In this document: positions 7,010 to 45,370 of the stretch, in pieces
Layout of the letters: each line of letters opens with the position of its first letter
Numbering within the stretch: the first letter of the stretch is position 1
Source: Magnetospirillum sp. ME-1
GTDB lineage: Bacteria > Pseudomonadota > Alphaproteobacteria > Rhodospirillales > Magnetospirillaceae
Reading direction: 5' to 3'
Assembly: GCF_002105535.1 (NCBI RefSeq)
Contig: NZ_CP015848.1
Coordinates: 3,700,926 to 3,764,925 of the forward strand
Length of the DNA: 64,000 nucleotides
The notes under the pieces: generated by a model
Databases searched by the model: none
Told to the model about the DNA's origin: nothing
Seen by the model: only the letters and a program-made list of their open reading frames with translations
Program-made: the position numbers and the translations under genes

Positions 7010-7938
7010 GCGAGGAATTCGAAGACGCCCCGGCCATGCGCCATCAGGGCCTGGCGCCCTGGCTGCAGACCGCCTGGGACATGCGCGCCGCCGGCAATTT
7101 CATCGGCGGCGGCTCGGGCACCGGCCTGTTGATCCTCACCTCGCTGGGGTCCTTCGCCGGACTTTACAGCCCGGTGCTGCTGCTGGCCGGTCTGGCCCTG
7201 GTCGGCCTCGGCCTGTTTTCCGTCTTCCTCGAGATCGGCCGTCCGCTTCGCGCCATGAACGTCCTGCTGGGCGGCAAGCGCAGTTGGATGACCCGCGAAG
7301 CGTTTGTCGCCGCCGTGCTGTTCCCGCTGGGGGGCGCCGCGCTGATCTGGCCGGATCTGGCCAAGCTGGTGTGGATTCCCGCCGCCGCCTATCTCTATTG
7401 CCAGGCCCGGATTCTCGAATCCGCCAAGGGCATTCCCACCTGGCGCTCGCCCTTGATCCTGCCGCTGACCGTGGTCACCGGCTTGGTCGAGGGCGCCGGC
7501 ATCCTGCTGCTGCTGGGGACCCTGTTCCTGGATGCGGGCGCGCCGGAATGGGTGGCCGGCACCCTGGTGGCCACCATCGCGGGGCGCATCTTCGTGTGGA
7601 TGTTCTACCGCCGCCGCATGGTGGGCGGCGAGGCGCCGGTGGAAGCCGCCGCCATGCTGATCCGCCTGTCCATGCCCTTCACGCTGGGCGGCAACATCAT
7701 TCCCATCGCCTTCCTGGTGCTGGCCGGCATTCAGCCCGACATCCGCGCCGCCGCCCTGGCCGCCGCCGGTCTGGCCGCCATGGCGGGTGGCTGGGCCATG
7801 AAGATCGTCATCGTCACCAAGGCGGCCCACAACCAGGGCTTCGCCATCAACCATTCCCCCGCCCGTGGCGGCGGGGAATCCGGTCCGGGCTTCAAGCCGG
7901 GCTGGCGTGAGGTTCCTAAGGACCAGGACAAGAAATAG
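7006..7938 (+). CDS. padD: DmsC/NrfD-like membrane anchor and quinone-reactive subunit (PadD-like)
   Basis: A 310-residue integral membrane protein with about eight hydrophobic segments, for example around SGTGLLILTSLGSF, VLLLAGLALVGLG, LILPLTVVTGLVEG and LAAAGLAAMAGGWA. By position and topology it is the DmsC-type anchor that passes electrons from the FeS subunit to the quinone pool. The start at 7006 overlaps the previous stop (ATGA). The tail after residue 285 is hydrophilic and charged. In the phenylacetate model it makes oxidation of phenylacetyl-CoA quinone-dependent. The specific Pad assignment depends on the neighbours. Confidence 0.7.
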   Translation: MSEEFEDAPAMRHQGLAPWLQTAWDMRAAGNFIGGGSGTGLLILTSLGSFAGLYSPVLLLAGLALVGLGLFSVFLEIGRPLRAMNVLLGGKRSWMTREAFVAAVLFPLGGAALIWPDLAKLVWIPAAAYLYCQARILESAKGIPTWRSPLILPLTVVTGLVEGAGILLLLGTLFLDAGAPEWVAGTLVATIAGRIFVWMFYRRRMVGGEAPVEAAAMLIRLSMPFTLGGNIIPIAFLVLAGIQPDIRAAALAAAGLAAMAGGWAMKIVIVTKAAHNQGFAINHSPARGGGESGPGFKPGWREVPKDQDKK

Positions 7939-8008
7939 GCACCGTCCGGCCGGCGGGGAGGCTTCCCTTTTCCGAGCACGCGTGCGGGCAAAGAGAGGAG
8001 AGGCTTTG

Positions 8009-9940
8009 ATGGTCAAGACGTTGGATGCTGCCCGCCTGGGCGTCGCGGCGGGCGAGGCTGGCGACGACCTGCGCGTCGCCCTGACGAACACCCGCGAGTT
8101 CGGCATGGTGATCTCGGCCGGCTTGGGCGCACGTGAAGCCGCCCTGGCCGAGGGCGCCTTCCGCAAAGACGGCGCCGCCGTGCATGCCTCGGTGGAACTC
8201 GCCGACGGCACCGGCTTCCTGGCCCGCTTCAAGCGCACCTTCGCCTATCGCCGTCTTGCCGCCCGGGGCGTTGCTCCCGACGCCGCGCTGGAAAAGTGCT
8301 TCGCCGCCCTGATCGATTTTGGCCGTTCGGAGGCCGCGCGGACCACCGGCGAGGTGGTCCTCGACCTTTCCGCCTCCAAGGACGGCCTCACGGGTTCGGT
8401 TTCGACCAAGGCCTGCGAGGCGGCCCCCACCCGTCTGGCCCGTCCCATCGCCAAGATCGACAAGCTGATCCACCCGGAAAAGATCGGCATCATCGGCGTG
8501 TCGGCCAGTGGAATGAATTTCGGCCGCATCATCCTGAAGAACCTGATGGGCAGCGGCTGTCCCAAGGAACGGCTGGTCATCATCCGCCCCGAGGAGACGG
8601 AGATCGACGGCGTCAAGTGCGTGGAAAGCCTTGCCGCCCTGCCGGCCAAGCTCGACCTCCTGATCGTCGCGGTGCCGTCCGGCGCGGTCTATCCGCTGGT
8701 CGACGAGATCATCGCCACCGACAAGGTCCACGCCGTGATGCTGATCCCCGGCGGCATGGGCGAGACCGAGGTGAGCAAGGAGCCGGCCGCCGCCCTGGCG
8801 GCCCGCATCAACGCCGCCCATGGCAAGGGTGACGGCGGCCCGGTGTTCCTGGGCGCCAATTGCCTGGGCGTGGTCAGCCATCCCGGCGGCTACGATTCCT
8901 GGTTCATCCCCTTGGAACGCCTGCCCAAGCCCGCCAAGAAGGCCAAGCGCAACTCGGTGCTGCTGAGCCAATCGGGCGCCTTCATGATCACCCGGTTGAG
9001 CCGCAACCCGTGGCTGGACCCGGCCTACGCCCTGGCGCTGGGCAACCAGACCGATCTTACCCACGGCGACATGCTGACCTATTTCGCCGCCCGCGACGAT
9101 ATCGAGACCATCGGTGTCTATGTGGAGGGCTTCAAGGACGGCGACGGTCTCGACTTCGTGCGTGCGGTGCGCCGCGCTGTGGCGTCGGGCAAGCAGGTGG
9201 TGGTCTACAAGTCGGGCCGCACCGAAGCCGGCGCGGCCGGCGTCATGGGCCACACCGCCTCGGTGGCCGGTGATCCCGCCCTGTTCGAATCCGTGGTGCG
9301 CCAGGCCGGCGCCATGGTGGCCGAGGACGTGGACGTCTTCGACGATTTGTTCTACATCGCCGGCGCCTTCCATCATAAGACCATCGGCGGCAACCGGGTG
9401 GGCGGCATCTCGGGCGCCGGCTTCGAGGCGGTGGGCATCGCCGATTCCACCGTGACCGAGACCTTCGCGCTGCGCATGGGCGAGCTGACCCCTGCCACCG
9501 TGGCCAAGGTGCAGCAGATCCTGGTGGACAAGAAGCTGGATTCCCTGGTCACCGTCAGGAACTCCATCGACATCAACCCCGGCGCCGACGACGAATGCCA
9601 TCTGGCCATCACCGAAGCCTTCGCCCAGGACCCCAATATCGACGCCGTGGTGGTGGGCATGGACCCCACCGCACCGTCGGTAATGGGGCTGGTGGAAAGC
9701 AAGTTGCGGCCCGGCTGGGACATCAATAATCCCAAGAGCAGCCTTTTCCTGTTCCCGCCCATCGTCGAGCGCAATGCGAAGCCCATCATCGCCATCGTCG
9801 ATGGCGGGCCGCTCTACGATGCCATGGCCGGCGGGCTGATGGACAAGGGCGTCTGCGTGTTCCGCAACTGCTTCCGCGGCACACGCGCGCTGGCCCGCTA
9901 CGTCGAGGCCCGCCTCTACGCCGCCACGTTGAAGGGGTAA
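8009..9940 (+). CDS. NDP-forming acyl-CoA synthetase family protein with truncated ATP-grasp N terminus
   Basis: A 643-residue protein of the ADP-forming acyl-CoA synthetase superfamily. Residues 150-290 are a CoA-binding Rossmann domain (IGIIGVSASG), and the next domain has the nucleotide-loop-like SQSGAF. The phospho-histidine motif is intact as GHTASVAG, unlike in the PatZ-like protein at the window start, so acyl-phosphate chemistry is possible. The first 150 residues (FGMVISAGLG...) resemble only the end of an ATP-grasp domain, and the N-terminal nucleotide-binding half is missing. The start at 8009 follows a strong ribosome site (gagaggagagg). It lies 70 bp after the PadD-like gene and 66 bp before a phenylacetate-CoA ligase. 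It may activate an acid or recover ATP from a CoA ester such as phenylglyoxylyl-CoA, perhaps with a partner subunit elsewhere. The substrate is unknown. Confidence 0.75.
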   Translation: MVKTLDAARLGVAAGEAGDDLRVALTNTREFGMVISAGLGAREAALAEGAFRKDGAAVHASVELADGTGFLARFKRTFAYRRLAARGVAPDAALEKCFAALIDFGRSEAARTTGEVVLDLSASKDGLTGSVSTKACEAAPTRLARPIAKIDKLIHPEKIGIIGVSASGMNFGRIILKNLMGSGCPKERLVIIRPEETEIDGVKCVESLAALPAKLDLLIVAVPSGAVYPLVDEIIATDKVHAVMLIPGGMGETEVSKEPAAALAARINAAHGKGDGGPVFLGANCLGVVSHPGGYDSWFIPLERLPKPAKKAKRNSVLLSQSGAFMITRLSRNPWLDPAYALALGNQTDLTHGDMLTYFAARDDIETIGVYVEGFKDGDGLDFVRAVRRAVASGKQVVVYKSGRTEAGAAGVMGHTASVAGDPALFESVVRQAGAMVAEDVDVFDDLFYIAGAFHHKTIGGNRVGGISGAGFEAVGIADSTVTETFALRMGELTPATVAKVQQILVDKKLDSLVTVRNSIDINPGADDECHLAITEAFAQDPNIDAVVVGMDPTAPSVMGLVESKLRPGWDINNPKSSLFLFPPIVERNAKPIIAIVDGGPLYDAMAGGLMDKGVCVFRNCFRGTRALARYVEARLYAATLKG

Positions 9941-10006
9941 GGGGCTTGCCCCATACCCGGCGGCGGGATAGATAGGGACCCGCAGGCGGAAGGGAGGGAC
10001 CAGGCC

Positions 10007-11314
10007 ATGAGCGCGGATTTCATGTATGCCCCCGAGGTGGAGCGTCTGGACCGCGCCGGCTTGGCGCGCCTGCAGCTGGAGCGCCTGAAGGCGCTGCTGG
10101 CTCACGCCTATGCCAACGTCCCCCATTACCGCGCCGCCTTCGACGCCGCCGGCGTGAAGCCCGACGATCTTCGGCATCTCGAGGATCTGGCCCGCTTTCC
10201 CTTCACGGTGAAGGCCGACCTGCGCGACAATTACCCCTTCGGCCTGTTCGCGGTGCCCAGGGAGCAGGTGCTGCGCATCCACGCCAGTTCCGGCACCACC
10301 GGGCGGCCCACCGTGGTGGGCTATACCAGGGGCGATCTCGACAATTGGGCCGATCTGATGGCCCGCACCCTGGCGTCCACGGGGGCGCGGCCCGGCGACG
10401 TGATGCACAACGCCTATGGCTACGGGTTGTTCACCGGCGGCCTGGGCTTTCATTACGGGGCCGAGCGGCTGGGCTGTTCGGTGGTGCCCATGTCGGGCGG
10501 CAATACCGAGAAGCAGATCACCCTGATCAGGGATTTCGGCGCCCGCGTGCTGACCGCGACGCCTTCTTACGCTCTCAACATCGCCGAGGTGGCCGAGGGC
10601 ATGGGCATGGATCTGGCCGAATCCACCCTTCGGGTCGGCTCGTTCGGGGCCGAGCCCTGGAGCGAGACCATGCGGGCCGAACTGGACCGGCGCTTAGGCA
10701 TCCGCGCCTGCGACACCTATGGCCTGTCCGAGATCATGGGGCCGGGCGTCGCCGCCGAGTGTATCCACCGGGTCGGCCTGCACGGCTGGGAGGACCATTT
10801 CCTGTTCGAGATCATCGATCCCGAAACCATGGAGCCGCTGCCCATGGGAGCCGAGGGCGAACTGGTCATCACCACGCTCACCAAGCAGGCGCTGCCCATG
10901 GTGCGCTACCGCACCCGCGACATCACGCGCCTCTCCGACGAGCCCTGCGCCTGCGGCCGCACCCATGTGCGCATCCTGCGCGTCACGGGCCGCAACGACG
11001 ACATGATGATCATCCGGGGCGTCAACGTCTATCCCAGCCAGATCGAGGCGGCCCTGGTGGGCTTCCCCGGCGTGGCGCCCCATTACCTGCTGACGCTCAC
11101 CCGCCAGGGTTCGCTCGACCACCTGACCGTGGAAGTGGAGGCGGCGGACGGGCGCGGCGAGGACGACCGCGCCCACCTGGCCCGCCAGGCCCGCCACCAC
11201 CTGAAATCCCTGGTCGGCATCACCGCCGAGGTGATCGTGCGGCTGCCCGGCGAACTGCCGCGTTCCCAGGGCAAGGCGGTGCGGGTGCGGGATTTGAGGA
11301 AAGAGGCGCAGTAG
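10007..11314 (+). CDS. paaK: Phenylacetate-CoA ligase (AMP-forming)
   Basis: A 435-residue member of the PaaK branch of adenylate-forming enzymes, the usual length. Visible landmarks are the P-loop HASSGTTGRPTVV (about residues 91-103), the adenine-site region YGLSEIMGPG, the hinge region RYRTRDIT, and a C-terminal domain with DDMMIIRGVNVYPSQIE as in PaaK. It converts phenylacetate, ATP and CoA into phenylacetyl-CoA in the cytoplasm, which would feed the oxidoreductase encoded upstream. The anaerobic version is sometimes called PadJ. It ends 2 bp from the convergent metal-handling operon, so the two operons are packed tail to tail with no room for a hairpin terminator outside the coding sequence. 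Confidence 0.88.
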   Translation: MSADFMYAPEVERLDRAGLARLQLERLKALLAHAYANVPHYRAAFDAAGVKPDDLRHLEDLARFPFTVKADLRDNYPFGLFAVPREQVLRIHASSGTTGRPTVVGYTRGDLDNWADLMARTLASTGARPGDVMHNAYGYGLFTGGLGFHYGAERLGCSVVPMSGGNTEKQITLIRDFGARVLTATPSYALNIAEVAEGMGMDLAESTLRVGSFGAEPWSETMRAELDRRLGIRACDTYGLSEIMGPGVAAECIHRVGLHGWEDHFLFEIIDPETMEPLPMGAEGELVITTLTKQALPMVRYRTRDITRLSDEPCACGRTHVRILRVTGRNDDMMIIRGVNVYPSQIEAALVGFPGVAPHYLLTLTRQGSLDHLTVEVEAADGRGEDDRAHLARQARHHLKSLVGITAEVIVRLPGELPRSQGKAVRVRDLRKEAQ

Positions 11315-11316
11315 CC

Positions 11317-11739
11317 TCAATACCGCCCGAACACCTGCGACCCTTCCGGGCCGAAGGTCTGGACCACGTTCTCTTCCTTAGGGCCGCCCATGCCGGGCGA
11401 GCCCATGGGCATGCCCGGCGAGGCGATGCCGCGGGTCTTGGGGCGCTCCTTCAGCAGCTTGTCCACCGCCTCGGCGGGCACGTGGCCCTCGATCAGGTAG
11501 CCGTCCACCTTGGCGGTGTGGCACGACTGCATGGGGGCGGGAATGCCGTAGGCGCGCTTGATCTGGTCGATGTCGTCCACATCGATGGACTTCACCTTAT
11601 AGCCCGACTGGCGCATGTGCTCGGCCCAGCCCTCGCAGCAGCCGCAGGTGGGCGACTTCCACATGGTGACCTCGCGCTCGGCGGCCGAAGCGGGCAGGGC
11701 GGCAAGCAGGCCGAGCAGGAATGCGAAGACGGTCTTCAT
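11317..11739 (-). CDS. DUF411-family periplasmic metal-binding protein
   Basis: A 140-residue secreted protein. The signal peptide (residues 1-20) ends at ASAAE, followed by TMWKSPTCGCCEGW, the Cys-x-Cys-Cys signature of DUF411, and a conserved MQSCHTAKVDGYLIEGHVP stretch. The family commonly sits beside copper-resistance genes and is thought to bind metal in the periplasm. A Met/Gly/Pro-rich tail (GMPMGSPGMGG) may add soft-metal ligands. It is the last gene of the - strand metal operon, 13 bp after the cytochrome gene. The ATG at 11739 has an AGGAGG-like site just upstream. Confidence 0.8.
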   Translation of the reverse strand: MKTVFAFLLGLLAALPASAAEREVTMWKSPTCGCCEGWAEHMRQSGYKVKSIDVDDIDQIKRAYGIPAPMQSCHTAKVDGYLIEGHVPAEAVDKLLKERPKTRGIASPGMPMGSPGMGGPKEENVVQTFGPEGSQVFGRY

Positions 11740-11752
11740 GGCTCGTTCCTCC

Positions 11753-12457
11753 TCAGTGCTTGTGGCCGGCATGGGGATCGGCCGAGGCCGGCACGCTGCC
11801 CAGCCCGTTGGCCGCCTGCATGGCGCGGATATAGGCCAGCACCTCCTTGTCCTGGCCCGGCTTGACGCCTTCGGGCTTGGGCATGTCGCCGAACCGCCAC
11901 ATATGTGCCTTGGCCCCCTTGTTGACGGCGTCCAGGATGACGTCGTCGCCATGGGCCGAGCCCAGGGCGTAGAAGGGATGCAGCAGCGGCGGGCCGTTGT
12001 CGCTGCCGCGCAAGGTTGTGCCGTGGCAGGTGGCGCACACCGCCTCGAACACCTTGCGGCCGGCTTGCGCCTGGACCGGCAGGTTGGCCGGCGTGATCAG
12101 CTCGGTCTGCTGGAAGCGCAGCGACAGGGGCTTGCCGTCCACGGTCAGCCCCAGCACGGCGGCCACCTTGTCGCCGGACTTGACCGGGATTTCGGCCACC
12201 AGGCCATCGCCCTTAGGCGCCAGCGGCACGTCCAGCTTCTGGCCGCCCAGCAGCAGGGTGGCCTTGCCCTCGGCCTTGACCGGCTTGTCGTTGCGGTCGC
12301 GGACCCAGACCTTGACGGCCCCGTCGCGCACGGCGAATTCGGCACGGTAGCCGCCGCTTTCGGTGATCTGGCCGCCGAAGAAGGCGGCGAGCGCGCCCTG
12401 GGCCAGGGCCGAGGGCACGGTCAGCAGGAGGGCCAGGGTGAGCAGGCGTGTCTTCAT
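11753..12457 (-). CDS. Periplasmic monohaem cytochrome c with N-terminal beta domain
   Basis: This 234-residue secreted protein starts at the ATG at 12457 and has a signal peptide ending near SALAQG. Residues about 25-120 are beta-rich without haem and resemble a periplasmic metal or adaptor domain. The haem-binding motif CATCH lies near residue 140, and the Met in GDMPKP is the likely distal ligand. The C terminus is His-rich (DPHAGHKH). It sits between the RND pump gene (23 bp upstream) and the DUF411 gene. It may link metal handling to electron transfer, for example oxidation of Cu(I), but that role is inferred from neighbours only. Confidence 0.75.
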   Translation of the reverse strand: MKTRLLTLALLLTVPSALAQGALAAFFGGQITESGGYRAEFAVRDGAVKVWVRDRNDKPVKAEGKATLLLGGQKLDVPLAPKGDGLVAEIPVKSGDKVAAVLGLTVDGKPLSLRFQQTELITPANLPVQAQAGRKVFEAVCATCHGTTLRGSDNGPPLLHPFYALGSAHGDDVILDAVNKGAKAHMWRFGDMPKPEGVKPGQDKEVLAYIRAMQAANGLGSVPASADPHAGHKH

Positions 12458-12480
12458 GGTCGAAATCTCCTTGGGCCGGA

Positions 12481-15400
12481 TCATGTCCGCGCCTCGTTCA
12501 CAAGTCCAGCGAGGGCGTTTCGCCCCAGCAGCAGCACCACCACCGGGGTCACCAGGGTGTCGAGTAAGGTCGACGACATCAGGCCGCCGAAGATCACCAC
12601 CGCCACCGGGTGCAGGATTTCCTTGCCCGGTTCTCCCCCGGCCAGGACCAGGGGCAGCAACGCCAGGGCGGCCACCAGGGCGGTCATCAGCACCGGGGTC
12701 AGGCGTTCGAGCGAGCCGCGCACGATCATGGCGGGGCCGAATTCCTCGCCCTCGTGGCGCATCAGGTGAAGGTAGTGGGTGATCTTCATGATGCCGTTTC
12801 TGGACGCGATGCCGGCCAGGGTGACGAAGCCCACCATGCCCGCCACCGACAGCGGCAATCCGGCCAGCCACAGGGCGGCGACGCTGCCCACCAGGGCCAT
12901 GGGGATGTTGGCCATGATGATCAGGGCCAAAAGCCCCGAGCGGAAATGGGCGTGCAGCAGGGCGAAGATGGCGGCCAGCGACACCAGGGCCAGCAGGCCG
13001 ATCAGCTTCGCCGCGTCCTGGCGGCTTTTGAACTGGCCTTCATAGGCGATGGAATAGCCGGGCGGCAGCTTCATCTGGCCCAGGGACGCCTGGACCTCCT
13101 CCATGATGGTCCCTAAGTCGCGGCCCTGGGAGTTGGCGAACACCACCACCCGGCGGCGCAGGTTGTCGCGGTTGATCAGGTTGGGGCCCTGGGTCTCCAC
13201 CACCTCGGCCACCAGGGACAGCGGCACCTTGCCCGCCGGGGTGTCCACCAGGATCTGGCGGAAATCCGAGGTCTGGGCCCGCCAGTCCTCGGCCAGGCGC
13301 AAGACCACGCTGGTGCTGCGCTCGCCGTCCCTGACCTGGGACACCACCTTGCCCTGGAGCGCCGCTTCCAGGGTCTCGGTCAACTGGCCGAGGCCCAGGC
13401 CGTATTTGCGCGCCTCGGCGCGGTCGAGGCGGATCTGCACCTGGGGGATGAGGACCAGCTTCTCGATCTGCAGGTCGGCGACGCCGTTGACCTCCTGCAT
13501 GCGGCCCCTGGCCTCGGCGGCCAGGGATCGCAGCGTGTCCAGATCGTCGCCGAAGATCTTGACGGCGATCTCGGCCCGCACTCCCGACAGCAGGTGGTCG
13601 AGACGGTGCGAGATGGGCTGGCCGATATTGATGCCGATGCCGGGAATCCGGGCCAGCCGGGCGCGGATGTCGGCCAGGATCACCGCGCGCGGTCGTCCCG
13701 ATTGATGCAGGTCCACGTCGATTTCCGAGGTGTGGACGCCCTCGGCGTGCTCGTCCAGCTCGGCGCGTCCCGTCCGCCGCCCGGTGGACACGGTTTCGGG
13801 CACCTCGCGGATCAGGGTTTCGGCGATGGTGCCGATGCGGTTGGATTCCGACAGCGAGGTCCCGGGCGGCAGCACCACCGAGATCATCACGGTGCCCTCG
13901 TTGAAGCTGGGCAGGAAGGTGCGGCCCAGGAAGGGCACCGAGGCGGCGGCTGCGACCATCAGGGCGATGGCCGGAATGATCACCGCCCTGGGGTTGGCGA
14001 AGGACCAGTCCAGCAGCCGCCGGTCCCAGGCCTTGAGATGCCGCACCAGGGCGGAATCCCCGTGGCCCACCGCCTTGGCCTTGGGCAGCAGCAGGGCCGA
14101 CAGCGCCGGGGTGACGGTGAGCGACACCACCAGCGAGGCCAGGATCGACACCACATAGGCGACGCCCAACGGCGCGAACAGCCGTCCCTCGATCCCCGAC
14201 AGGGCGAACAGGGGCAAAAAGGCCAGCACCACCACCAGGGTGGCGTAGACGATGGAGTTGCGCACTTCCGACGATGCCGCCAGCACCACGCCCAGGATGG
14301 GGCGCGGCTCGGGCAACGCCGCGTTCTCGCGCAGGCGCCGCAGGATGTTCTCCACGTCCACCACGGCGTCGTCCACCAGCTCGCCGATGGCCACCGCCAG
14401 ACCGCCCAGGGTCATGGTGTTGATGGACAGGCCCAAAGCCTGGAACACCAGGGCGGCCACCACCATGGACAGCGGAATGGCGGTCAGGCTGATGAAGGTG
14501 GTGCGCATGTTCATCAGGAAGGCGAACAGCACGATGGCCACCAGCACGGCGCCGTCGCGCAGCGCCTCGGCCACGTTGGCCACGGCGCGGCCGATGAAGT
14601 CGGCCTGGCGGAACAGCACGCGGTCGGCCTCGATGTCGGGCGGCAGCGTCCGGCTGATCTCGGCCAGGGCGGCCTCGACCTTGGCGGAGAGCGCCACCGT
14701 GTCGGCGCCCGGCTGCTTGGAGACCGCCAGGATCACCCCCGGACGGGCGTCGATGGCGGCGTCGCCGCGCTTGATGCCCGCGCCGATGCGGACCTCGGCC
14801 ACCTGGTCGACGGTGACGGGGGCGTTGTTGCGCCATGCCACCACGGTGTTCCGAAGGTCGTCCAACTCGGTGGTCTGGCCGATGTTGCGGATCAGGAACT
14901 CGGCCGAGCGCTGTTCCAGAAAACCGCCGGTGGTGTTGCGGGCAAAGCCGGCCAGGGCTTTTTCCACGTCGGCGTAGCCCAGCCCCAGGGCCGACATCTT
15001 CGACGGCGAGACCAGGACCTGGATCTGGCGCACCTCGCCGCCGATGGGAATCACCTGGGCGATGCCGGGGATGGAGAGCAGGCGGGGGCGAAGCACCCAG
15101 TCGGCCAGGGAGCGCAGCTCCATGGGCGAGGTGGCACCGGCCTTGGAGCGCACCCCCACCAGCATGATCTCGCCCATGATGGAGCTGACCGGCCCCATGA
15201 CGGGATTGATTCCGGCGGGCAGCAGGTCGCGGGCCGAGGACAGGCGCTCGGCCACCAGCTGGCGGTTGCGGTAGATCTCGGTGCCCCAGTCGAACTCCAC
15301 GAAGACGATGGCAAGGCCCACGCCGGAATTGGACCTGACCCGCACCACGCCGGGCGCGCCGTTCATGGCGGTCTCGATGTGGCGGGTGACCATGGTCTCG

Positions 15401-36388: not shown

Positions 36389-36775
36389 ATGGACGACGGG
36401 CTGGCCCGGCGGGTGACGCCGCTGACCGTGGTGGCGGATATGGCGGAGACGGTGGCCACCTACGTGGCTCTGGGCTTCGAGCCGGTGGAAAGCGGCGACG
36501 CGGGCTGTGTGGGCTTGCGCGCCGGTCCCACCTACCACGTGGTGGCGACCAAATCCTACATGGAGCGGCAGTTCAGCCCGCTGACCGTGGCGCTGCTGCT
36601 CGACCGCACCACGCCCTATGTCTACGTCTCGTCCCTGGACGAGGCCAAGGCGCGGCTGTCGCCCATGGCCGCCATCGTCGAGCAGGCGGCGCCGGGCGAC
36701 GGAATCCGCGAGGCGGTGGTCGAGACCGGCGGCCAATTGCTGGTCCTGGCCGAGAAGGTCCCGGCCGAGGCTTAG
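36389..36775 (+). CDS. VOC-fold (glyoxalase-like) protein
   Basis: A 128-residue protein whose N-terminal TVVADMAETVATYVALGFEPVESG has the start of a vicinal-oxygen-chelate module: a short strand and helix followed by GF-x-P. Only one module is present, so it may dimerise. The metal ligands (usually His/Glu) are not clearly conserved. It may not be enzymatic. A GTG at 36377 that overlaps the ygfZ stop is an alternative start; the ATG at 36389 has a better-spaced ribosome site. Its last four bases overlap the end of the convergent giant repeat gene (36772-36775). Confidence 0.65.
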   Translation: MDDGLARRVTPLTVVADMAETVATYVALGFEPVESGDAGCVGLRAGPTYHVVATKSYMERQFSPLTVALLLDRTTPYVYVSSLDEAKARLSPMAAIVEQAAPGDGIREAVVETGGQLLVLAEKVPAEA

Positions 36776-39700
36776 GCGACGGCCGATTCCAGGGCGGCGA
36801 TCTGCTCGGGCGTCATGCCGGCGATCTGGGTGGTGGTGAAGGCGTCCACCTGGGTGGCGGTCAGAGCCTCGATCTGAATCGGGGCCAGCGCCGCCACGTT
36901 GGTGGTGCTGAGATTGCCGACCTGGGTGGTGGTCAGGCCGCTCAGCTGGCCGGCCGACAGCGACGCCATCTCGGTGGTGCTGAGATTGCTGACCTGGGTG
37001 GGCGTCATGGCACGGATCTGGGTGGCCGACAGGCGGGCGAACTGGGTGTTGGTCAGCGCCTGCAGCTGGACGCCGGTGAGGTTGGTCACCTGAACCGTGG
37101 AAAGCGCCTGGATCTGGGTGTCGGTCAGCGCCTGCACCTGGGTGGTGGACAGGGCGCGGATCTGCATGCGGGTCAGCGAGCCCAACTGCTCGCTGTCCAT
37201 CTGGGCGATCTGCGAGGTGGACAGGCCGCCGATCTGGGTCGGCGTCAGCGCGGCGATCTGTTCCCCGGCCAGGGCGTAGAACTGGGTGGCGTCCAGGCTG
37301 GCCAGCTGCTCGGCGCTCAGCCCGACGATGCTGGTGGGCGACAGGGCGTTGACCTGGGACGGGGGCAGCGCTCCGATCTGGGTGGTGGACAGCGCCGACA
37401 GCTCGGTGACGGTCATGCCCCAGATGCCGTATTGCGACAGCGACGAAATCTGGGTGGTGGAGAGCGCCTGCACCTGTGTGGTGGACAGCGACGCGATGCC
37501 GCTGGCCGATATTCCGCCCAGCTGGGTGGTGGTCAGCGCATCGATTTCGGTGGCGGTCAGTCCGCCGACCTGGGTGGTGGTGAGAGCCCCCATCTGGGTG
37601 ACGGTCACCGCCTGCAGCTGGGTGGTGGACAGCGCCCCCAGCTGGGTTCCGGTCAGGCCGCCGATGCCGGTGGTCGACAGCGAGGCGATCTGGGTGGTCG
37701 ACAGGCCGCGCACCTGGGTGTTGGACAGCGAGCCGATGCCGGTGGCGGTCAGTCCCGCCAGCTGGGTGGCGGCCAGCGATCCCACCTGGGTGGTGTTGAG
37801 GCCGCTCAGCTGGGCCGAGGCCAGCGCCCCCATCTGGGGGCCGGTCAGGCCGCGCAGCTGGGTGGTGGACAGCGCGCCCATCTGGGCCGAGGTCAGCCCG
37901 GCGAGCGACGCGGTGGCCAGGGCCGCCATCTGGGTGGCGGCCAGCCCGCGGATCTGAGTGGACGACAATCCGGCCAGCTGGCTGGAAGCCAGGCCCGACA
38001 GGCCGGTGTTGGACAAGGCGGTCAGCGAGGTGGTGGACAGGCTGCCGATCTGGGTGGCCGACAGCGCCCGCACGCCGGCGGTGCCAAGGCCCGCCAGCTG
38101 GGTGGTGGACAGCCCGGCCAGGTCGGCGGTGGACAGCCCCTGGATCTGCGCGGTGCTTAAGCTCCCCATCTGGGCGGCGGACAGCCCGCGCAGCTGGGTC
38201 AGCGACAAGGCGTCCACCTGGGTGGCCGACAATGCGGCCAGGGCGGTGGTGTTGAGCGCCGCCATGTGGCTGACCGACAGGCCGCCCATCTGGGCGGTGG
38301 ACAGGCCGTGGATCTGGGTGGTGGCCAGCCCCGCCACGGCGGTGACGGTCAGGGCGGCGATCTGGGTGGGCGTCATGGCGCCGATCTGGGTCTCGTCCAG
38401 CTCGTCCACCTGCTCGGCCAGCAATCCCCGGATCTGGGTGATGGTGAGCGCCCCCACATCCTCGGTGGTGAGGTCGCCCACCGCGGTTTCGGACAACTGG
38501 CCGATCTGGGTGGCCGACAGGCCGCGCAGCTGGGTGACGGTCATGGCCTCGATCTGGCCGCCGGTGAGGCCGCCCACGCCGCCCACCGACAGGGCAGCGA
38601 TCTGGGTGGCGGTCAGCTGGCTCACCTGCGCCGTGGACAGCGCCGCGATCTGGGTGCTGCCCATGCCGGCCAACTGGGTGGTGGACAGCGCGGCGAAGGC
38701 GGTTCCCGACAGGCCCGCCACCTGGGTGGCGGTGAGGCCACCCATCTGCTGGGCGGTGAGCGACCGCAGCTGGGTGGCCGACAGCGCCGCCACCTGGGTG
38801 GAGCCCAGGCCGGACAGCGCCGTCTGGCTGAGGCCGGCCACCTGGGTGGTGGACAGGGCCGCCACCTGGGCGAGGCTGAGGCCGGCGGTCTGCTCGGCGG
38901 TCAGGCCGGCCAGCGTCGCCACCGGCAGGGCGCGCAGCTGGGTGACGGACAGCGCCGCCAGTTGGGCGGTGGACAGGGCCGCCGCCTGGGTGGCGCGCAG
39001 CCCGGCGATCTGGGTACTGGTCAGCGCGGCCATGGCGGTGGTGGAGAGCCCTCCCACCTGGGTGGAGCTCATGGCGGCCAGCTGGGTAGCGGACAGGGCG
39101 CCCAGCTGGGTGGTGGACAATTGCGCCAGGCCGGTGGTGGACAGGCCGGCGACGCTGGCCCCCGACAGCGCGCGGATCTGGGTGACCGACAGCACGCTCA
39201 TCTGGGCCGGACCCAGGGCGCCCAGCTGCGCCCCGCCCAGCCCGGCCGCCTGGGTGGCGGTCAGCGCCGACAGCCCGGTGGTGGACAATCCGGCGAACTG
39301 GGCCGAATCCAGGGCACCCAATTGCGCCGTGCCCAGGCTGCGCACCTGGGTGGCCGACAGCGCGCCCAGCTGGGTGGTGCTCATGCCGGCCATCTGCTCG
39401 GTGCCGAGGCCGGCGATCTGGGTGGTGGACAGCGCGGCCATCTGGGTGCCCGAAAGCCCGTCGATGCCCGATTCCGACAGCCCGGCCAGCTGGGAGGCGC
39501 TGAGCGAGCGCAACTGGGTGGAAGACAGGCTGGCCACCTGCGACGACGACAGGCCGTCGATGGCTCCGGCGGCGATGGCGGCGATCTGGGGGCCTCCCAG
39601 GGCGGTCAGCTGGGTGGTGGCCAGGGCGCCCAGCTGGGTCTCGCCCAGGCCGGCGATCTGGGTGGGGGTCATGGCCCGGATGCGGGTCTCGCTGAACACT

Positions 39701-42700
39701 CCCATCTGGGTGGGCGACAGACCGCCCACCGCCCCGGCCGACAGCGCCGCCATCTGGGTCGCCGTCATGCCCGACAGCGTGGTGGTGGACAGCGACGCCA
39801 CCTGGGTGGCGGTCAGGCCGCCCAGCTGGGTGACGGTCAGCGCCCCCAGATCGGTGGCCGACAGTCCGCTCACCTGATCTCCGGTCAGCGCACCCACCTG
39901 GGCCGCGCTCCAGGCCCGCAGCTGGGTGGGGGTGAGGGCTTCGATCTGGGTGGCCGACAGCCCGGCGATGCCCGAGGCGGACATGGCCGCCATCTGGGTG
40001 ACGGAGAAGGCGGACAGCTGATTGGTGCTGAGATTGGCCACGGTATCGGCGGCCAGTCCCTGCATCTGGGTGGTGGACAGGCCGGCCAGCTGGGTGTTGC
40101 TCAGCCCGGCGATCTGGCCGGCATTGAGCGCCGCCAGCTGGGTGGCGCCCAGGCCGCGCAGCTGGGTGTTGGTCAGGGCGGCCAGGGTGGCGGCACCCAG
40201 CCCGGCCACCTGGTCCTGGCTCAGCGCGGCGATCTGGGCCGCGCCGAACGCCTTGACCTGGGTGTCGCTGAGGCTGGCCATCTGGCTGTTGGTCAGCCCG
40301 GCCATGGCCCCGGCCGACAATGCGCCCAGCTGCGAGGTCGAGAAGGCCCCCACCTGGGTGGTGGACAGGGATTCCAGCTGGGTGGCGGTCAGGCCGCGCA
40401 GCTGGGTGGTGGACAGCACCGCCAGATCGGTGGACGTCATGCCGTCCAGCCCGTCCTCGGACAGGGCGGAAAGCTGGGTGGCCGACAGCACCCGCAGCTG
40501 GGTGGCGGTGAGCGATTCGATCTGGGCGGCGCCGAGGGCGGCCAGGGCAGAGGTGCCCAGCGCCGTCACCTGGGTGATGGACAGGGCCGCCAGCTGCCCG
40601 GTGGTCATGGCCTGGGCCTGGGCCTGGCTCAGCCCGCCGATCTGGGTGGCGGACAGCGCCCGGATGCGGGTCTCGCCCAGGGTGGACATCTGGGTCTCGG
40701 CGAGGCCGCTCATGGCCGTGGCCGACAGCGCCCCCAGCTGGGTGGCGGTCAGGCCGTCCAGGGTGGTGGTGGTCAGCGCCCCCATCTGGGACGCGGTCAG
40801 TCCCGACAGTTGGGTGACGGTCAGCACCCCCAGCTCGGCCGAGGTCAGGCTTTCCACCTGGGTAGGCGACAGCCATCCCACCTGGTCGGGCGACAGGGCG
40901 CGCATCTGGGTCGAGGACAGCCGGGCGACCTGGGTCTGGCTGAGGCCGCTCACCCCGGCGGCGGACAGCGCCCCCATCTGGGTGGAACTGAACTGGGTGA
41001 CGTCCAGATTGGCGATGGTGTCGCCGCCAAGGCTGCGCATCTGGGTGGTGGACAGCGCCGCCACCTGGGTCGTGGTGAGGGCGCCCAGCTGGCTCGCCGA
41101 CAGCCCGGCCAGCTGCGACGCGCCGAGGGCGCGGATCTGGGTGACGGACAGCGCCGCGATGGTCGAGGTGTCCAGGCCGCCGATCTGCTCCATGCCCAGC
41201 GCCGCGATCTGGGTGGTGGCGAGCGCCGCCAGCTGGGCCGGCGCCAGCCCGGCGATGCCGGTGGTGGACAGGCCGGCCATGGCGGTGACGCTGATGGCGG
41301 CCACCTGGGTGGAGGTGAGCGCCGCCAGCTGGGCCGAATCCAGGCTGGCCGTCTGGGTGGCGGTCAGGCCGCGGATCTGCGACGCCGACAGCGCGGCCAG
41401 CTCGTCGTAATCCAGCCCGTCCAGCCCGTCCTCGGACAGGGCGCCGATCTGGGTGGCCGACAGCGCACGCAGCTGGGTGGTGGACAGGGCGCCGATCAGG
41501 GCGCTGGACAGTCCCGACAGGGCGGTGTTGCTGATGCCGCCGACCTGGGTGGCCGACAGCTGGCCCAGCTGCGAGGCCCCCAGGGCGCCCAGCTGCGCCG
41601 CCCCCAGGCCGCCGATCTGGGTGGTGGACAGGGCCGACAGCTGGGTCTGGCTCAGTCCGCCGATCTGGGTGGTGGACAGGCTGGCCAACTGGGCGGCGGT
41701 CAGGCCGCGGATCTGGGTGACGGACAGCTCGCCGATCTCGGTGGAGTCCAGCTGCGAGAGCTGGGCGGCGGACAGCCCGGCCAATTGGGTGGGGGTCAGC
41801 GCGCCCAGCTGGGTGACGGTGAGGGCCGCCACCTGGGTCTCGGCCAGCCCGGCCAGCCCCGAGGTGGACAGGGCGGCGATGCTGGCGGCGTCCAGTCCTT
41901 CGATCTGGGTCTGGCTCAGCGCGCCGACCTGGGTCGCGGTCATGCCGCCGAACTGGGTGCGGGTCAGCGACGACAGTACGGTGGCCGACAGGCTGGAGAT
42001 CTGGTCGGGGCTGAAGCCGGCGATCTGGGTGGTGGACAGCACCCGGATCTGGGTCGCCGACATGGCGTCCATCTGGCTGTTGCTCAGGCCGGACACGCCG
42101 GCGCTGGACATGGACATCAGCTGGGTGAAGCTGAGCAGGCCGATCTGGGTGGTGGACAGTTCGGACAGGCTGGTGGCACCCAGGCCGCGAATCTGGGTGG
42201 CGGTCAGGGCCGCCATCTCGGTGGCGGTCAGGCTCTGCAGCTGCGTGCCGCTCATGGCGTTCAGCTGAGCGGTGGAGAGCGCGCGCAGCTGGGTGAAGGA
42301 CAGCTGCGCCACCTGATCGGGGGTCAGCGCCGCCACCTGGGAATTGGCCAGCCCGGCCACCTGGGTAATGCTCAGCGCCCCCATCTGGGTGGCCGACAGG
42401 ATGGCCACCTGGGCTTCGGTCAGGGCGCGAAGGGCGCCGACGCCCAGCGCCGCCACCTGCGACGATCCCAGCGCCGCCAGCTGGCTGTCGGACAGCTGGC
42501 CGATATTGGTGGCGGTCAGCCCCCGGACCTGGGTGACGGACAGCGCCGCCACGGCCGACGGCGACAAGGCGGCGATGGCGGTATCCGACAGGGCGGAAAT
42601 CTGGGTGGCGGTGAGCGCGCGGACCTGGGTCGCCGACATCTCGCCCAGCTGGGTCTGGCTCAGCCCGGCCAGCTGGGTCGGGCGCAATGCCGAAATCTGC

Positions 42701-45225
42701 GTCTGCGACAATCCGCCCAGCTGGGTGGTGTCCAACAGGCCGATCTGGGTGGCGGTGAGCCCGGTGATCTGGGTGGTGGACAGGCCGCCCAGCGCCGCCG
42801 GCGTCAGTCCCGGCAAGGCATCGGGCGACAGCGCCCCCAGCTGGGTCTCCGACAGGCCCTTCAACTGGGCCGATGACAGGTGGCTGACCTGATCGGCGTT
42901 CAGGCCCGCCAGGGCGAGGATGCCCAGACCGCCGATCTGGGTGGCCGACAGGCCGCCCAGCTGGGTTTCGCTCAGCATGCCCACCCGGTCCTGGGACAGG
43001 CCCAGAAGCCCGGTGGTGGACAGCGCGCCGATCTGGGTGGCGTCCAGCGAGTTGAACTGCTCGTCGCTCAAGCCCCGGATGTGCCCGGCGGTCAGCCCGC
43101 CCAGCTGGGTGGTGGTCAGGCGGTCCAGGGTGGTCTCGGTCAGGGCCGCCGCCTGTTCGACGCTCAGCCCCCCCATCTGCGCCGAGGACAGCGCCGCCAG
43201 CCGGGAATCGGTCAGGGTCTCGATGACCTCGACCGACAGGCCCCTGATCTGGGTGGCGGTCAGCGCGCCCATCTGGGTGGTGGACAATCCCGCCATCTGG
43301 GTGGGTGTGAACGCCGACAGCTGGCCCGGCGTCAGGCTGCGCACCTGGATCAGGCTGAACGCTCCCAGCTGGGCCGGGGCCATGGCGGCGATCTGCCCGT
43401 CGGACAGGTTGGCGATCTGGGTGGCGCTCAGTCCCGCCACCTGCGTGGTGCTCAACTGGCCGATCTGGGTCGGGCTCAGTCCGGCCAGCTGGGTGGAGAG
43501 CAATCCGCCCAGCTGGGTCTGGTTGAGCGCACCCAGCTGCTCGGCGCTCAGCTGCGCCACCTGGAATTCGTTGAGGCCGCGCAGCGCCGTGGTGGTGAGC
43601 GCGGCGATCTGGGCGGTGCCGAGCGCGGCCAGCTGGGTCTCGTCGAACTCGGTCAGGGCGCGTATGCCCAGGCCCTTGACCTGATACTGGTTCAGGCCGG
43701 CGATCTGCGTCGTGTCCAGGGCGTGAATCTGCTCGGCGCCCAGCATGCCGATCTGGGTGGCCGACAGGGCGGCGAACTGGGTCGCGGTCAGGGCGCGCAG
43801 CTGGGTCGCCCCCAGCCCCGCCATGGCGGTCAGCGCCAGGGCGGCGATCTGCGAGCCGCTCATGGCCTGGATCTGGTCCGGCGACAGATAGCCGATCTCG
43901 GTGGCGGTCAGCGCCTTGATCTGGGTGGCGTTGAAGGCCGCCAGCTGGGTGGGCGTCAGGGCCTCCACCTGCTCCTGGGTCAGCCCGCCGATATCGGTGG
44001 AGGTCAGCCCGCGCACCTGGGCGGCCGACAGCCCGCTGATCTCCATGGTGGAGAAGGTGGCGAACTGCGAGGTGGACAGCGCCCCAATCTGGCTGGCCGA
44101 CAGGCCGGCGATCTGGGTGGCGTCCAGGGATTCCACCGCCGTGGTGGACAGCGCCCGGATCTGGTTGGTGCTCAACACCGCCACCTGATCGGCGGACAGC
44201 CGGTCCACCTGGGTGGCGCCCAGCCCGGCCACGGCGCGGGTGGCCAGATAGGAAAGCTGGGTGGAGGTCAGCCCCGACAATTGCGCGTCGGTCAGCCCGC
44301 CCACCTGCTTGGCGGTCATGGCCCCCAGCTGGGTCGGGCTTAAGCCCGCCATCTGGGTCGGCGTCAGGGTGGCGATGGCGGTGGTGCTGAGGAACTGGAA
44401 CTGCGAGGCGGTGATGGCCGCCATCTGGGTGGCGGTCATGGCCGCGATCTGGGTCTCGGCCAGCCCCTGGATGCCGAAGGCGCTGAGCGCCGCCACCTGG
44501 TCGGCGCTCAAGGCGGCGATCTGGTCGGGGCCGAGGGCGCCCGACGCCGTCTGGGTCAGGCCGCGCAGCTGGATGGTGGACAGCGCCCCCACCTGGGTGG
44601 CGCTGAAGGCCGAGACCTGGGCGGAGGAAAGCGCCAGCATGCCGGTGATGGACAGGCCGCCCAGTTGGGCCGGGGTCAGCGAGGCCAGGGTCTCGCTGGC
44701 CAGTCCGCCTATCTGGGTGCCGGTCATGGCGGCGATCTGGCTGGCTCCCAGGCCGGTCATCTGGGTGGCGGTGAGCGCCCCGGCCTCGGTAATGGTCAGG
44801 CCGCGCACCTGGGTGGCCGACAGCACCGACAGCTGGCTGGGCGCCAGGGCGCGGAACTGGGTCACCGTCATCTCGCCCAGGTCGGTGGCGGTCAGTCCCT
44901 TGATCTGCAAGGCCGACAGCGACGAGATGACGTCGACTCCGAAGGCATCGAACTGGGCGTCGAGCAGCACCGACAATTGCTCGCCGCTGAACGCCACCTG
45001 GGAGGGGGACAGGCTGCCGATCTGGGTCTCGGTCAGCCCCGTCATCTGGGCGGTGCTGAGCGAGGCCAGCTGGGTGGCGCTGAATTCCTGGATCTGCTCG
45101 ACGGTGAAGGCGGCGACCTGGAACGAGCTGAGCTCGCGGATGTCCGACGCGGTCAGGTCCCGAATGGCCGCGCCGCTCAGCTGAGCGATCTGCGCCTCAT
45201 TCAATGACGATATGGACGAGACCAT
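36772..45225 (-). CDS. Giant octapeptide-repeat protein (2,817 residues)
   Basis: One uninterrupted frame encodes about 340-350 copies of an 8-residue unit, consensus L-[ST]-x-T-Q-[IVLM]-x-[AG], from close to the first residues (MVSSISSLNEAQIAQL) to the end (TPEQIAALESAVA). It has no signal peptide, membrane segment, Cys, RTX-like or other known domain, and very few Lys or aromatic residues. Each unit carries a helix-capping pattern: hydrophobic residue, Ser/Thr cap, Gln three residues later, then hydrophobic. This suggests a stack of short helical turns (inference). The ATG at 45225 has GGAGAAG upstream. It stands alone: downstream is a convergent gene, upstream a 190-bp gap and yciB. I do not recognise the family; a large scaffold, filament or surface protein are options. 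Confidence 0.85.
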   Translation of the reverse strand: MVSSISSLNEAQIAQLSGAAIRDLTASDIRELSSFQVAAFTVEQIQEFSATQLASLSTAQMTGLTETQIGSLSPSQVAFSGEQLSVLLDAQFDAFGVDVISSLSALQIKGLTATDLGEMTVTQFRALAPSQLSVLSATQVRGLTITEAGALTATQMTGLGASQIAAMTGTQIGGLASETLASLTPAQLGGLSITGMLALSSAQVSAFSATQVGALSTIQLRGLTQTASGALGPDQIAALSADQVAALSAFGIQGLAETQIAAMTATQMAAITASQFQFLSTTAIATLTPTQMAGLSPTQLGAMTAKQVGGLTDAQLSGLTSTQLSYLATRAVAGLGATQVDRLSADQVAVLSTNQIRALSTTAVESLDATQIAGLSASQIGALSTSQFATFSTMEISGLSAAQVRGLTSTDIGGLTQEQVEALTPTQLAAFNATQIKALTATEIGYLSPDQIQAMSGSQIAALALTAMAGLGATQLRALTATQFAALSATQIGMLGAEQIHALDTTQIAGLNQYQVKGLGIRALTEFDETQLAALGTAQIAALTTTALRGLNEFQVAQLSAEQLGALNQTQLGGLLSTQLAGLSPTQIGQLSTTQVAGLSATQIANLSDGQIAAMAPAQLGAFSLIQVRSLTPGQLSAFTPTQMAGLSTTQMGALTATQIRGLSVEVIETLTDSRLAALSSAQMGGLSVEQAAALTETTLDRLTTTQLGGLTAGHIRGLSDEQFNSLDATQIGALSTTGLLGLSQDRVGMLSETQLGGLSATQIGGLGILALAGLNADQVSHLSSAQLKGLSETQLGALSPDALPGLTPAALGGLSTTQITGLTATQIGLLDTTQLGGLSQTQISALRPTQLAGLSQTQLGEMSATQVRALTATQISALSDTAIAALSPSAVAALSVTQVRGLTATNIGQLSDSQLAALGSSQVAALGVGALRALTEAQVAILSATQMGALSITQVAGLANSQVAALTPDQVAQLSFTQLRALSTAQLNAMSGTQLQSLTATEMAALTATQIRGLGATSLSELSTTQIGLLSFTQLMSMSSAGVSGLSNSQMDAMSATQIRVLSTTQIAGFSPDQISSLSATVLSSLTRTQFGGMTATQVGALSQTQIEGLDAASIAALSTSGLAGLAETQVAALTVTQLGALTPTQLAGLSAAQLSQLDSTEIGELSVTQIRGLTAAQLASLSTTQIGGLSQTQLSALSTTQIGGLGAAQLGALGASQLGQLSATQVGGISNTALSGLSSALIGALSTTQLRALSATQIGALSEDGLDGLDYDELAALSASQIRGLTATQTASLDSAQLAALTSTQVAAISVTAMAGLSTTGIAGLAPAQLAALATTQIAALGMEQIGGLDTSTIAALSVTQIRALGASQLAGLSASQLGALTTTQVAALSTTQMRSLGGDTIANLDVTQFSSTQMGALSAAGVSGLSQTQVARLSSTQMRALSPDQVGWLSPTQVESLTSAELGVLTVTQLSGLTASQMGALTTTTLDGLTATQLGALSATAMSGLAETQMSTLGETRIRALSATQIGGLSQAQAQAMTTGQLAALSITQVTALGTSALAALGAAQIESLTATQLRVLSATQLSALSEDGLDGMTSTDLAVLSTTQLRGLTATQLESLSTTQVGAFSTSQLGALSAGAMAGLTNSQMASLSDTQVKAFGAAQIAALSQDQVAGLGAATLAALTNTQLRGLGATQLAALNAGQIAGLSNTQLAGLSTTQMQGLAADTVANLSTNQLSAFSVTQMAAMSASGIAGLSATQIEALTPTQLRAWSAAQVGALTGDQVSGLSATDLGALTVTQLGGLTATQVASLSTTTLSGMTATQMAALSAGAVGGLSPTQMGVFSETRIRAMTPTQIAGLGETQLGALATTQLTALGGPQIAAIAAGAIDGLSSSQVASLSSTQLRSLSASQLAGLSESGIDGLSGTQMAALSTTQIAGLGTEQMAGMSTTQLGALSATQVRSLGTAQLGALDSAQFAGLSTTGLSALTATQAAGLGGAQLGALGPAQMSVLSVTQIRALSGASVAGLSTTGLAQLSTTQLGALSATQLAAMSSTQVGGLSTTAMAALTSTQIAGLRATQAAALSTAQLAALSVTQLRALPVATLAGLTAEQTAGLSLAQVAALSTTQVAGLSQTALSGLGSTQVAALSATQLRSLTAQQMGGLTATQVAGLSGTAFAALSTTQLAGMGSTQIAALSTAQVSQLTATQIAALSVGGVGGLTGGQIEAMTVTQLRGLSATQIGQLSETAVGDLTTEDVGALTITQIRGLLAEQVDELDETQIGAMTPTQIAALTVTAVAGLATTQIHGLSTAQMGGLSVSHMAALNTTALAALSATQVDALSLTQLRGLSAAQMGSLSTAQIQGLSTADLAGLSTTQLAGLGTAGVRALSATQIGSLSTTSLTALSNTGLSGLASSQLAGLSSTQIRGLAATQMAALATASLAGLTSAQMGALSTTQLRGLTGPQMGALASAQLSGLNTTQVGSLAATQLAGLTATGIGSLSNTQVRGLSTTQIASLSTTGIGGLTGTQLGALSTTQLQAVTVTQMGALTTTQVGGLTATEIDALTTTQLGGISASGIASLSTTQVQALSTTQISSLSQYGIWGMTVTELSALSTTQIGALPPSQVNALSPTSIVGLSAEQLASLDATQFYALAGEQIAALTPTQIGGLSTSQIAQMDSEQLGSLTRMQIRALSTTQVQALTDTQIQALSTVQVTNLTGVQLQALTNTQFARLSATQIRAMTPTQVSNLSTTEMASLSAGQLSGLTTTQVGNLSTTNVAALAPIQIEALTATQVDAFTTTQIAGMTPEQIAALESAVA
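36790..45190. repeat. Tandem 24-bp coding repeat with roughly 1-kb superperiod
   Basis: The DNA repeats every 24 bp (ctgggtggtggacagc-like on the + strand), one unit per octapeptide. The units are diverged. A higher-order repeat is visible from marker units encoding LSEDGLDGL-like octads whose ends fall at about 37440, 38496, 39480, 40464 and 41439, giving spacings of 1056, 984, 984 and 975 bp (44, 41, 41 and about 40.6 units). Matching LGGDTIANL and LAADTVANL units also lie 975 bp apart (41011 and 40036). This points to growth by duplication of blocks of about 41 units. Confidence 0.85.
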
Positions 45226-45370
45226 GTGTGCTTCTCCGGCCGAACCCTAGCGGATCGCGGCGACGCCAGACCTGATTTCGCGTGGCAACGCAAAAAGCAT
45301 GCCGAGCCCTGCCCGTAATGGGATGCGGGCGTATTCCTATGTTTCTTATAAGGATGAACGGGAGTCGCGT

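Follow-up and report, generated by a model that had tools for sequence, protein, structure and literature searches.

An ALTTAQ octad-repeat protein of 2,817 residues in Magnetospirillum sp. ME-1: a predicted alpha-solenoid whose relatives are often encoded beside a GT41 glycosyltransferase

The stretch of DNA analysed here (the window, 64,000 nucleotides from the single-contig, 4.55-Mb genome of Magnetospirillum sp. ME-1) carries a gene (P0001) whose frame runs from an ATG without a break and encodes an ALTTAQ octad-repeat protein (Table 1). Tiling by dynamic programming left 25 residues outside the octads, 7 at the N-terminus, 6 at the C-terminus and the rest in two internal breaks. Position 1 is Leu in 301 of the 349 octads, position 2 Ser or Thr in 265, position 4 Thr in 200, position 5 Gln in 258 and position 6 Leu, Ile, Val or Met in 330. 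Self-identity is 0.35 at a lag of 8 residues vs. 0.05-0.11 at other lags up to 40, multiples of 8 excluded. Cys is absent, Lys makes up 0.21% of the protein, Phe 1.2%, Tyr 0.2% and Trp 0.1%, and a Pfam profile search gave no other credible domain. An earlier sequence-only reading, which had described an unbroken frame of 2,817 residues with about 340 to 350 octads, no Cys, almost no Lys or aromatic residues and no other domain, is thus borne out on each of these points. The NCBIfam profile search of the protein gave no match, and no evident signal peptide was seen by eye at the N-terminus (MVSSISSLNEAQ...).

Table 1. Features of the octad-repeat gene and its upstream region (positions within the window)
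Feature	Position	Strand	Remarks
ALTTAQ octad-repeat protein gene (P0001)	36772..45225	-	2,817 aa, 349 octads
Octad phase break, aa 80-86	44968..44988	-	octad minus one residue; from tiling
Octad phase break, aa 1407-1411	40993..41007	-	truncated octad; from tiling
36 octads, aa 1940-2227, folded with a 61-row alignment	38545..39408	-	AlphaFold2 pLDDT 96.9, pTM 0.86
aa 1-480, folded as a single sequence	43786..45225	-	AlphaFold2 pLDDT 82.3, pTM 0.63
Sigma-54-like -24/-12 element	45290..45303	-	GGCATGCTTTTTGC; 64 bases before the ATG; also in ortholog L040

Upstream of the repeat gene lie genes for IspA, a PAS-GGDEF protein, GlmS and GlmU, and downstream of it a convergent small ORF without a Pfam match and a further open frame are followed by genes for a GT4-type glycosyltransferase, an asparagine synthase, an amidohydrolase and a histidine kinase. 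A conserved operon around the gene was considered and rejected, as among 24 loci only that of the ortholog L040 matched beyond generic kinase and GGDEF domains. The element upstream of the start codon resembles the sigma-54 -24/-12 consensus, and a sigma-70 scan found nothing at this element. A strict form of the pattern precedes 6 of the 86 repeat genes and none of the 657 flanking ORFs that served as controls; GGCA-N6-TTGC gives 6/86 vs. 4/657 and a looser form 15/86 vs. 56/657. It should be noted that the strict pattern was picked after the window copy and that of its ortholog had been seen, and with both excluded it occurs before 4 of 84 genes, three of them from Niveispirillum. We therefore treat the element as a hint that concerns a minority of repeat genes.

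The strand opposite the repeat gene is also open, with long frames of up to 1,536 aa. The minus frame has a GC content by codon position of 0.64/0.56/0.95, like the other likely genes of the window but unlike the long plus-strand frame, and on this pattern it is the coding one. L040, from a same-genus genome (G013), is an ortholog of equal length that aligns free of gaps at 75.8% amino-acid and 81.5% nucleotide identity. Its differences fall 564/307/690 on codon positions 1, 2 and 3, in agreement with coding by the minus frame. An earlier argument that the intact frame points to selection is supported, with zero indels over 8,454 bp at 18% nucleotide divergence and a dN/dS of 0.45. Within the octad, position 5 is the best conserved between the orthologs (96%), followed by position 1 (91%) and the others (65-79%). 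As Gln fills position 5 in just 258 octads, most of the exceptions have been kept too. Two further octad genes are found in the same genome, one encoding a giant protein of 4,593 residues and the other a protein of 1,455 residues (both measured stop to stop). Where other relatives align with gaps, these are often whole octads, for example 17 of 19 gaps against L039 and 53 of 57 against the giant paralog. The share is lower for L037 (4 of 8), L038 (10 of 15) and L043 (16 of 107), the frame of which is largely non-octad.

The protein is a real, conserved member of a named family, which is unstudied as far as the open-access literature shows. Pfam PF20080 (ALTTAQ_rpt) scores 1,070.4 bits against a gathering cut-off of 26.4, its repeat spans the whole protein with 98 stretches each passing E<=1 alone, and it also matches all 61 of 61 family segments. 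A position of the protein outside known families is not supported, considering this strong membership and the existence of a solved octad protein (9zem, see below). The sequence-only reading would have yielded to placement in a CHARACTERISED family; the profile search gave a named one, for which Pfam supplies the name only and no paper was found in the open-access literature. Searches of the same literature also found no paper on eight-residue-repeat solenoids or HeliScrew, on GT41 or OGT/SPINDLY joined to type I secretion, or on a "large exoprotein" in Magnetospirillum. Two papers found for 9zem are unrelated, and the best 12 of 39 titles on OGT, Caulobacter, adhesins and type I secretion do not deal with this protein. 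The 3.4-octad period and the charge faces are new here, and the gene neighbours of the family are described below.

With the window's own genome counted, 15 of 40 relatives and 6 of the 385 genomes sampled across the class carry the repeat, and Caulobacter vibrioides is the only one of 14 control genomes to do so. A scan of named genomes gave at least 597 stretches, of which 586 were confirmed, and the best 80, corresponding to 73 distinct loci, were kept. These best 80 come from Acetobacteraceae, Caulobacterales, Azospirillaceae, Methylobacteriaceae, Pseudomonas and Burkholderiales, together with a few MAGs labelled Planctomycetota, Acidobacteria and Geobacter. A further 56 plasmid records match the repeat, and the annotations seen on plasmids are "hypothetical protein", "heme utilization protein" and "large exoprotein involved in heme utilization or adhesion". 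One such case is the ALTTAQ-like protein at 7855-12540 of Cereibacter sphaeroides pRSKD131B (L155), where the name "heme utilization protein" looks like a carried-over misannotation. A phage or viral origin was rejected, as tblastn gave no match in phage records and no viral contig was confirmed in what was a weak test with six peptides only. Separately, Foldseek against viral models (BFVD) gave four matches at E<=0.001 from uncultured Caudovirales, one of them 35% identical over 110 columns. Three of the models (A0A6J5QPU1, A0A6J5Q6G8 and A0A6J7X2V1) match the octad model locally with E values of 6e-7 to 3e-5, the TM scores in the best 50 rows reach at most 0.28, and some phage proteins may therefore hold short octad-like stretches.

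In the AlphaFold2 model built with an alignment (Table 1), every one of the 36 octads is predicted to form one helix of 4-6 residues that starts at octad position 3. The single-sequence model of the N-terminal part gives the same pattern less regularly, with several merged or irregular helices, such as residues 81-94 at a phase break and 321-334 elsewhere. A helix start at position 3 would make Ser/Thr 2 the N-cap, Gln 5 N3, Leu 1 N' and the hydrophobic residue at position 6 N4. The helix N-cap box with hydrophobic staple that had been proposed from the repeat pattern is thus reproduced in the models, and the conservation of position 5 between the orthologs fits it. A continuous alpha-helix or coiled coil was rejected, as the models show mini-helices instead. 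Neither model contains a beta-strand, and a leucine-rich repeat was rejected on this ground in spite of a match to LRR_EndoS (72 bits, cut-off 27.9) that recurs in 55 of 61 segments. CAAP1 (PF15335; 100 bits in total, cut-off 25) has 0 stretches that pass alone and was taken as a composition artefact, and the other Pfam and phmmer side matches, several above Pfam cut-offs, were likewise rejected as compositional.

The octad fold appears to be partly precedented, to judge by sequence, by a solved protein. The best PDB sequence match, 9zem (HeliScrew4), which from its name we take to be apparently a designed protein, has a phmmer E value of 1.6e-15 over 104 residues, whereas the remainder of the phmmer list consists mostly of leucine-rich-repeat chains that we regard as compositional. 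HeliScrew4 contains 120 residues of octads such as LTPEQIAA and LSPDKIAA. It differs from the natural repeat in having about 15 octads with Pro at position 3 and Glu or Asp at position 4, where the natural repeat mostly has Ala, Thr or Ser. The likeness is one of sequence pattern; 9zem is absent from the best 50 of 253 Foldseek rows.

Clustering of 734 flanking ORFs from 97 loci (some of which cover the same region twice) gave a dominant cluster, present in 66 loci, that encodes a TPR and GT41 (OGT-like) enzyme. The GT41 search profile was built from this cluster itself, and 11 of the 11 members sent to Pfam exceed the PF13844 cut-off. Neighbours were counted for 81 repeat ORFs of at least 300 aa in the 73 loci from the best 80 of at least 597 stretches, and 65 of these ORFs have at least 1.2 kb of downstream sequence. 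Within this set of 65, a GT41 gene lies on the same strand no more than 500 bp downstream in 45 cases and anywhere in the locus in 53, and 20 have none directly downstream. Among near relatives of the window gene, GT41 lies at -2 to +31 bp in four (L037, L038, L039 and L071) and is absent from the examined flanks of L040 and L036. A GT41 copy (67%) in G003 is on a different contig from the repeat gene L036, and a Thioclava plasmid copy of the repeat has no GT41 or type I neighbours. Proteins with an adjacent GT41 gene are not significantly enriched in Thr (p 0.07) or in Ser plus Thr (p 0.13; 53 vs. 21 proteins). Genome-level co-occurrence was set aside, as 4 of 5 other repeat-carrying sampled genomes have GT41 yet so do 147 of 385 class genomes, which makes it uninformative.

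Own-genome searches found no GT41, ABC_tran or HlyD relative within the 64-kb window. The genome's closest GT41 enzymes are encoded by two genes next to the giant paralog and share 55% and 48% identity with that of L092 (the L039 gene region), and HlyD-like genes occur at six other places with 24-33% identity. Several other associations were observed. The region G003:C28:82615-134608 of a same-genus genome holds an unusual array of more than a dozen GT41-like matches in about 52 kb. A gene of 422-448 aa (radical SAM, PF04055, in the one member scanned) lies 207-209 bp upstream of the giant paralog in seven loci (L031, L033, L034, L035, L041, L075 and L076, L041 being the same region as L075), and two more conserved genes precede it in four of the seven. 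FkbM-type methyltransferases (PF05050 in the one member scanned), perhaps for glycan methylation, are found near the repeat gene in 11 loci (L078, L079, L084-L086, L090, L096, L099, L105, L123 and L138).

A second group of neighbours may point to export. A type I ABC gene, called at a profile score above 250 bits, is in the locus of 20 of the 81 repeat ORFs, and HlyD in that of 16 (again in the 73 loci from the best 80 of at least 597). The HlyD of L066 passes NCBIfam type_I_hlyD, and for two ABC proteins scanned type_I_sec_HlyB was the top NCBIfam match, below its cut-off. C-terminal extensions that carry EF-hands resemble type I substrates. Five extensions were scanned, and EF-hand families exceed the cut-off in two of them (L080 and L145, both Burkholderiales), fall below it in two (the second L080 ORF and L122) and give no match in one (L091, Pseudomonas). 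Could the protein instead stay inside the cell? An intracellular filament, ruler or scaffold, that is, a cytoplasmic solenoid with GT41 acting there on the solenoid or on another target, would suit the absence of an evident signal peptide by eye, of any secretion domain or RTX repeats recognised by Pfam or NCBIfam in the window protein, and of a type I ABC gene at all but 20 of the 81 repeat ORFs. It would also suit GT41 enzymes, which are generally cytoplasmic. However, at several loci an ABC gene and then an HlyD gene precede the repeat gene, with no more than about 160 bp between the end of HlyD and the repeat gene. On a Cereibacter plasmid, HlyD, type I ABC and GT41 stand in a row and the repeat gene adjoins them on the other strand, and there are also the EF-hand matches in L080 and L145. 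We consider an intracellular role unlikely and favour export.

The distribution of charge provides an independent view of the fold. The acidic octads of the window protein repeat every 3.39-3.40 octads (power 19-20 vs. a shuffle 95% maximum of 7.8), Arg or Lys at position 7 has the same period of about 3.4 (12.0 vs. 8.0) and Gly at position 8 has a period of 2.0 (22.0 vs. 8.1). From 105 distinct family proteins, the window's included, the 89 with at least 80 octads were analysed. An acidic period of 3.36-3.50 octads is significant (p<=0.01, 200 shuffles that keep composition and ignore relatedness) in 78 of these proteins, including the window protein and its ortholog. The highest acidic peak is in this band in 59 proteins and elsewhere at 2.0 (18), 2.38-2.47 (8), 7.5-8.1 (3) or 2.66 (one). 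Eleven of the 89 have no significant 3.4 band, five of them from Pseudomonas. Pseudomonas versions of the protein (L091, L107, L112, L134 and L136), which have a C-terminal extension, show a charge line at 2.44 octads in place of 3.4. The lines at 2.4 and 7.7 are consistent with aliasing of the second and third harmonics of the 3.4-octad rotation. From acidic to basic octads, the phase shift in the window protein is 165 degrees. The phase could be tested in 88 proteins and exceeds shuffles in 85, of which 54 lie at 150-210 degrees and 18 at 30-120, with different values in the giant paralogs (45-60) and L145 (34-69). Mutual information between octads, when summed, peaks at lags 3, 4, 7 and 10 (2.1-2.3; other lags up to 12, 1.6-1.8). 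Most simply, these patterns can be read as a solenoid with about 27 residues per turn and an acidic stripe opposite a basic one, and the period together with the offset of about 165 degrees argues for some 102 turns. The regular helical superstructure that had been predicted from the pattern is thereby supported from a second side.

It is also conceivable, although we judge it unlikely, that the 3.4-octad signal is a relic of an ancestral tandem unit of 24 octads (576 bp) and no structural pitch at all, as 24/7 is 3.43. The charge lines of the giant paralogs at 2.0, 3.43 and 4.8 octads are harmonics of 24, and many matches are spaced 576 bp apart. In the window protein, however, lag 10 (0.403) equals lag 24 (0.405) in strength and 10 does not divide 24, the best periods of the 45 strongest long proteins vary from 3.385 to 3.471 (a spread that is partly within resolution), and mutual information peaks at lags 3, 4 and 7 as well. 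Duplication of a 24-octad unit contributes to the period in the giants. Overall, we regard the structural reading of the window protein, a solenoid with one predicted mini-helix per octad, as strong, whereas its turn geometry, handedness, pitch and side-by-side packing are inferred. Capping, regularity and selection, as first read from the sequence, are supported; a position outside known families is not.

Foldseek against the PDB gave no global match among the best 50 of 253 rows, the first being LegL7 (a leucine-rich-repeat protein, query TM 0.22) and ranks 2-7 mesothelin chains with query TM of 0.26-0.35. In the comparison with mesothelin and ARM/HEAT solenoids, four chains have E values of 2.9e-4 to 6.4e-4 at a query TM of 0.26-0.35. 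Mesothelin, which has also been the subject of a structure prediction paper (PMC2628672), is described in PMC10035497 as 24 short helices wound into a compact right-handed solenoid, in which each full-circle repeat has 27-37 residues. The octad protein had been held to be unlike any solenoid that could be named; its period gives about 27 residues per turn, compared with 27-37 per circle in mesothelin, where the repeats differ in length and have little sequence in common. A mesothelin-like solenoid that binds carbohydrate or protein, with GT41 modifying another surface protein, draws on these ranks and on the 3 of 61 family segments that score Pfam Mesothelin, but the query-normalised TM stays at or below 0.35 in the best 50 of 253 rows and GT41 is usually the very next gene to the repeat, and we consider it improbable. 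The last alternative, a non-functional low-complexity frame held open by GC bias or antisense coding, as GC-rich repeats can open long frames on both strands, is hardly credible given the GC3 of 0.95 in the minus frame, the indel-free ortholog with its dN/dS of 0.45 and the recurrence of the octad family in many genera.

The frequent placement of repeat genes beside GT41 suggests a glycosylated cell-surface fibre. Our favoured reading, which we put forward as somewhat better than an even choice, is that the protein forms a rod-like alpha-solenoid and that its family is most likely exported by type I secretion, to work as a surface or matrix fibre that is commonly O-glycosylated by GT41. Each octad would form one mini-helix, capped by Ser/Thr 2 and Gln 5 and stapled by Leu 1 and the hydrophobic residue at position 6. 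Every 3.4 or so octads would complete one turn, and 349 octads would give a rod of about 90-100 nm at an assumed 0.9-1 nm per turn. One face would be lined with acidic octads and the roughly opposite one with basic octads, so that rods could pack side by side. Type I secretion would place the protein outside the cell, and the GT41 encoded just downstream would commonly modify the many Ser and Thr residues of the repeats. Export and glycosylation of the window protein itself are proposed from the gene neighbours of its relatives; with neither GT41 nor exporter at the window locus, both would have to act in trans. A bolder version, which we offer as speculation more doubtful than probable, is a new class of fibre in which type-I-exported, GT41-glycosylated rods of thousands of residues, acidic on one side and basic on the other, zip laterally into sheets or bundles and the octad count serves as a molecular ruler.

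Known systems offer partial parallels. HMW1 is a beta-helix adhesin exported by two-partner secretion, and its GT41 enzyme HMW1C is cytoplasmic and encoded beside it. In HMW1/HMW1C and in serine-rich repeat adhesins, a large surface adhesin is found beside a cytoplasmic glycosyltransferase that modifies it. ALTTAQ proteins differ from HMW1 in being predicted alpha-solenoids with a TPR and GT41 enzyme and, in some loci, type I genes. Giant type I adhesins of the RTX/LapA type are likewise very long and repetitive, and type I genes are found at some ALTTAQ loci, but the window protein lacks RTX nonapeptides and a Ca-binding domain and its repeats are predicted to be alpha-helical.

To our knowledge, the targets of bacterial OGT-like enzymes are mostly unknown, and ALTTAQ repeats are a possible large class of substrates for them. 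The models describe a very simple natural alpha-solenoid, with one mini-helix for every eight residues and a predicted total of more than 100 turns. As a natural counterpart to a solved octad protein, the repeat leads to clear predictions of the size of a turn and of the charged faces. A family that has gone unannotated, and at times been misnamed "heme utilization", thus becomes a testable system.
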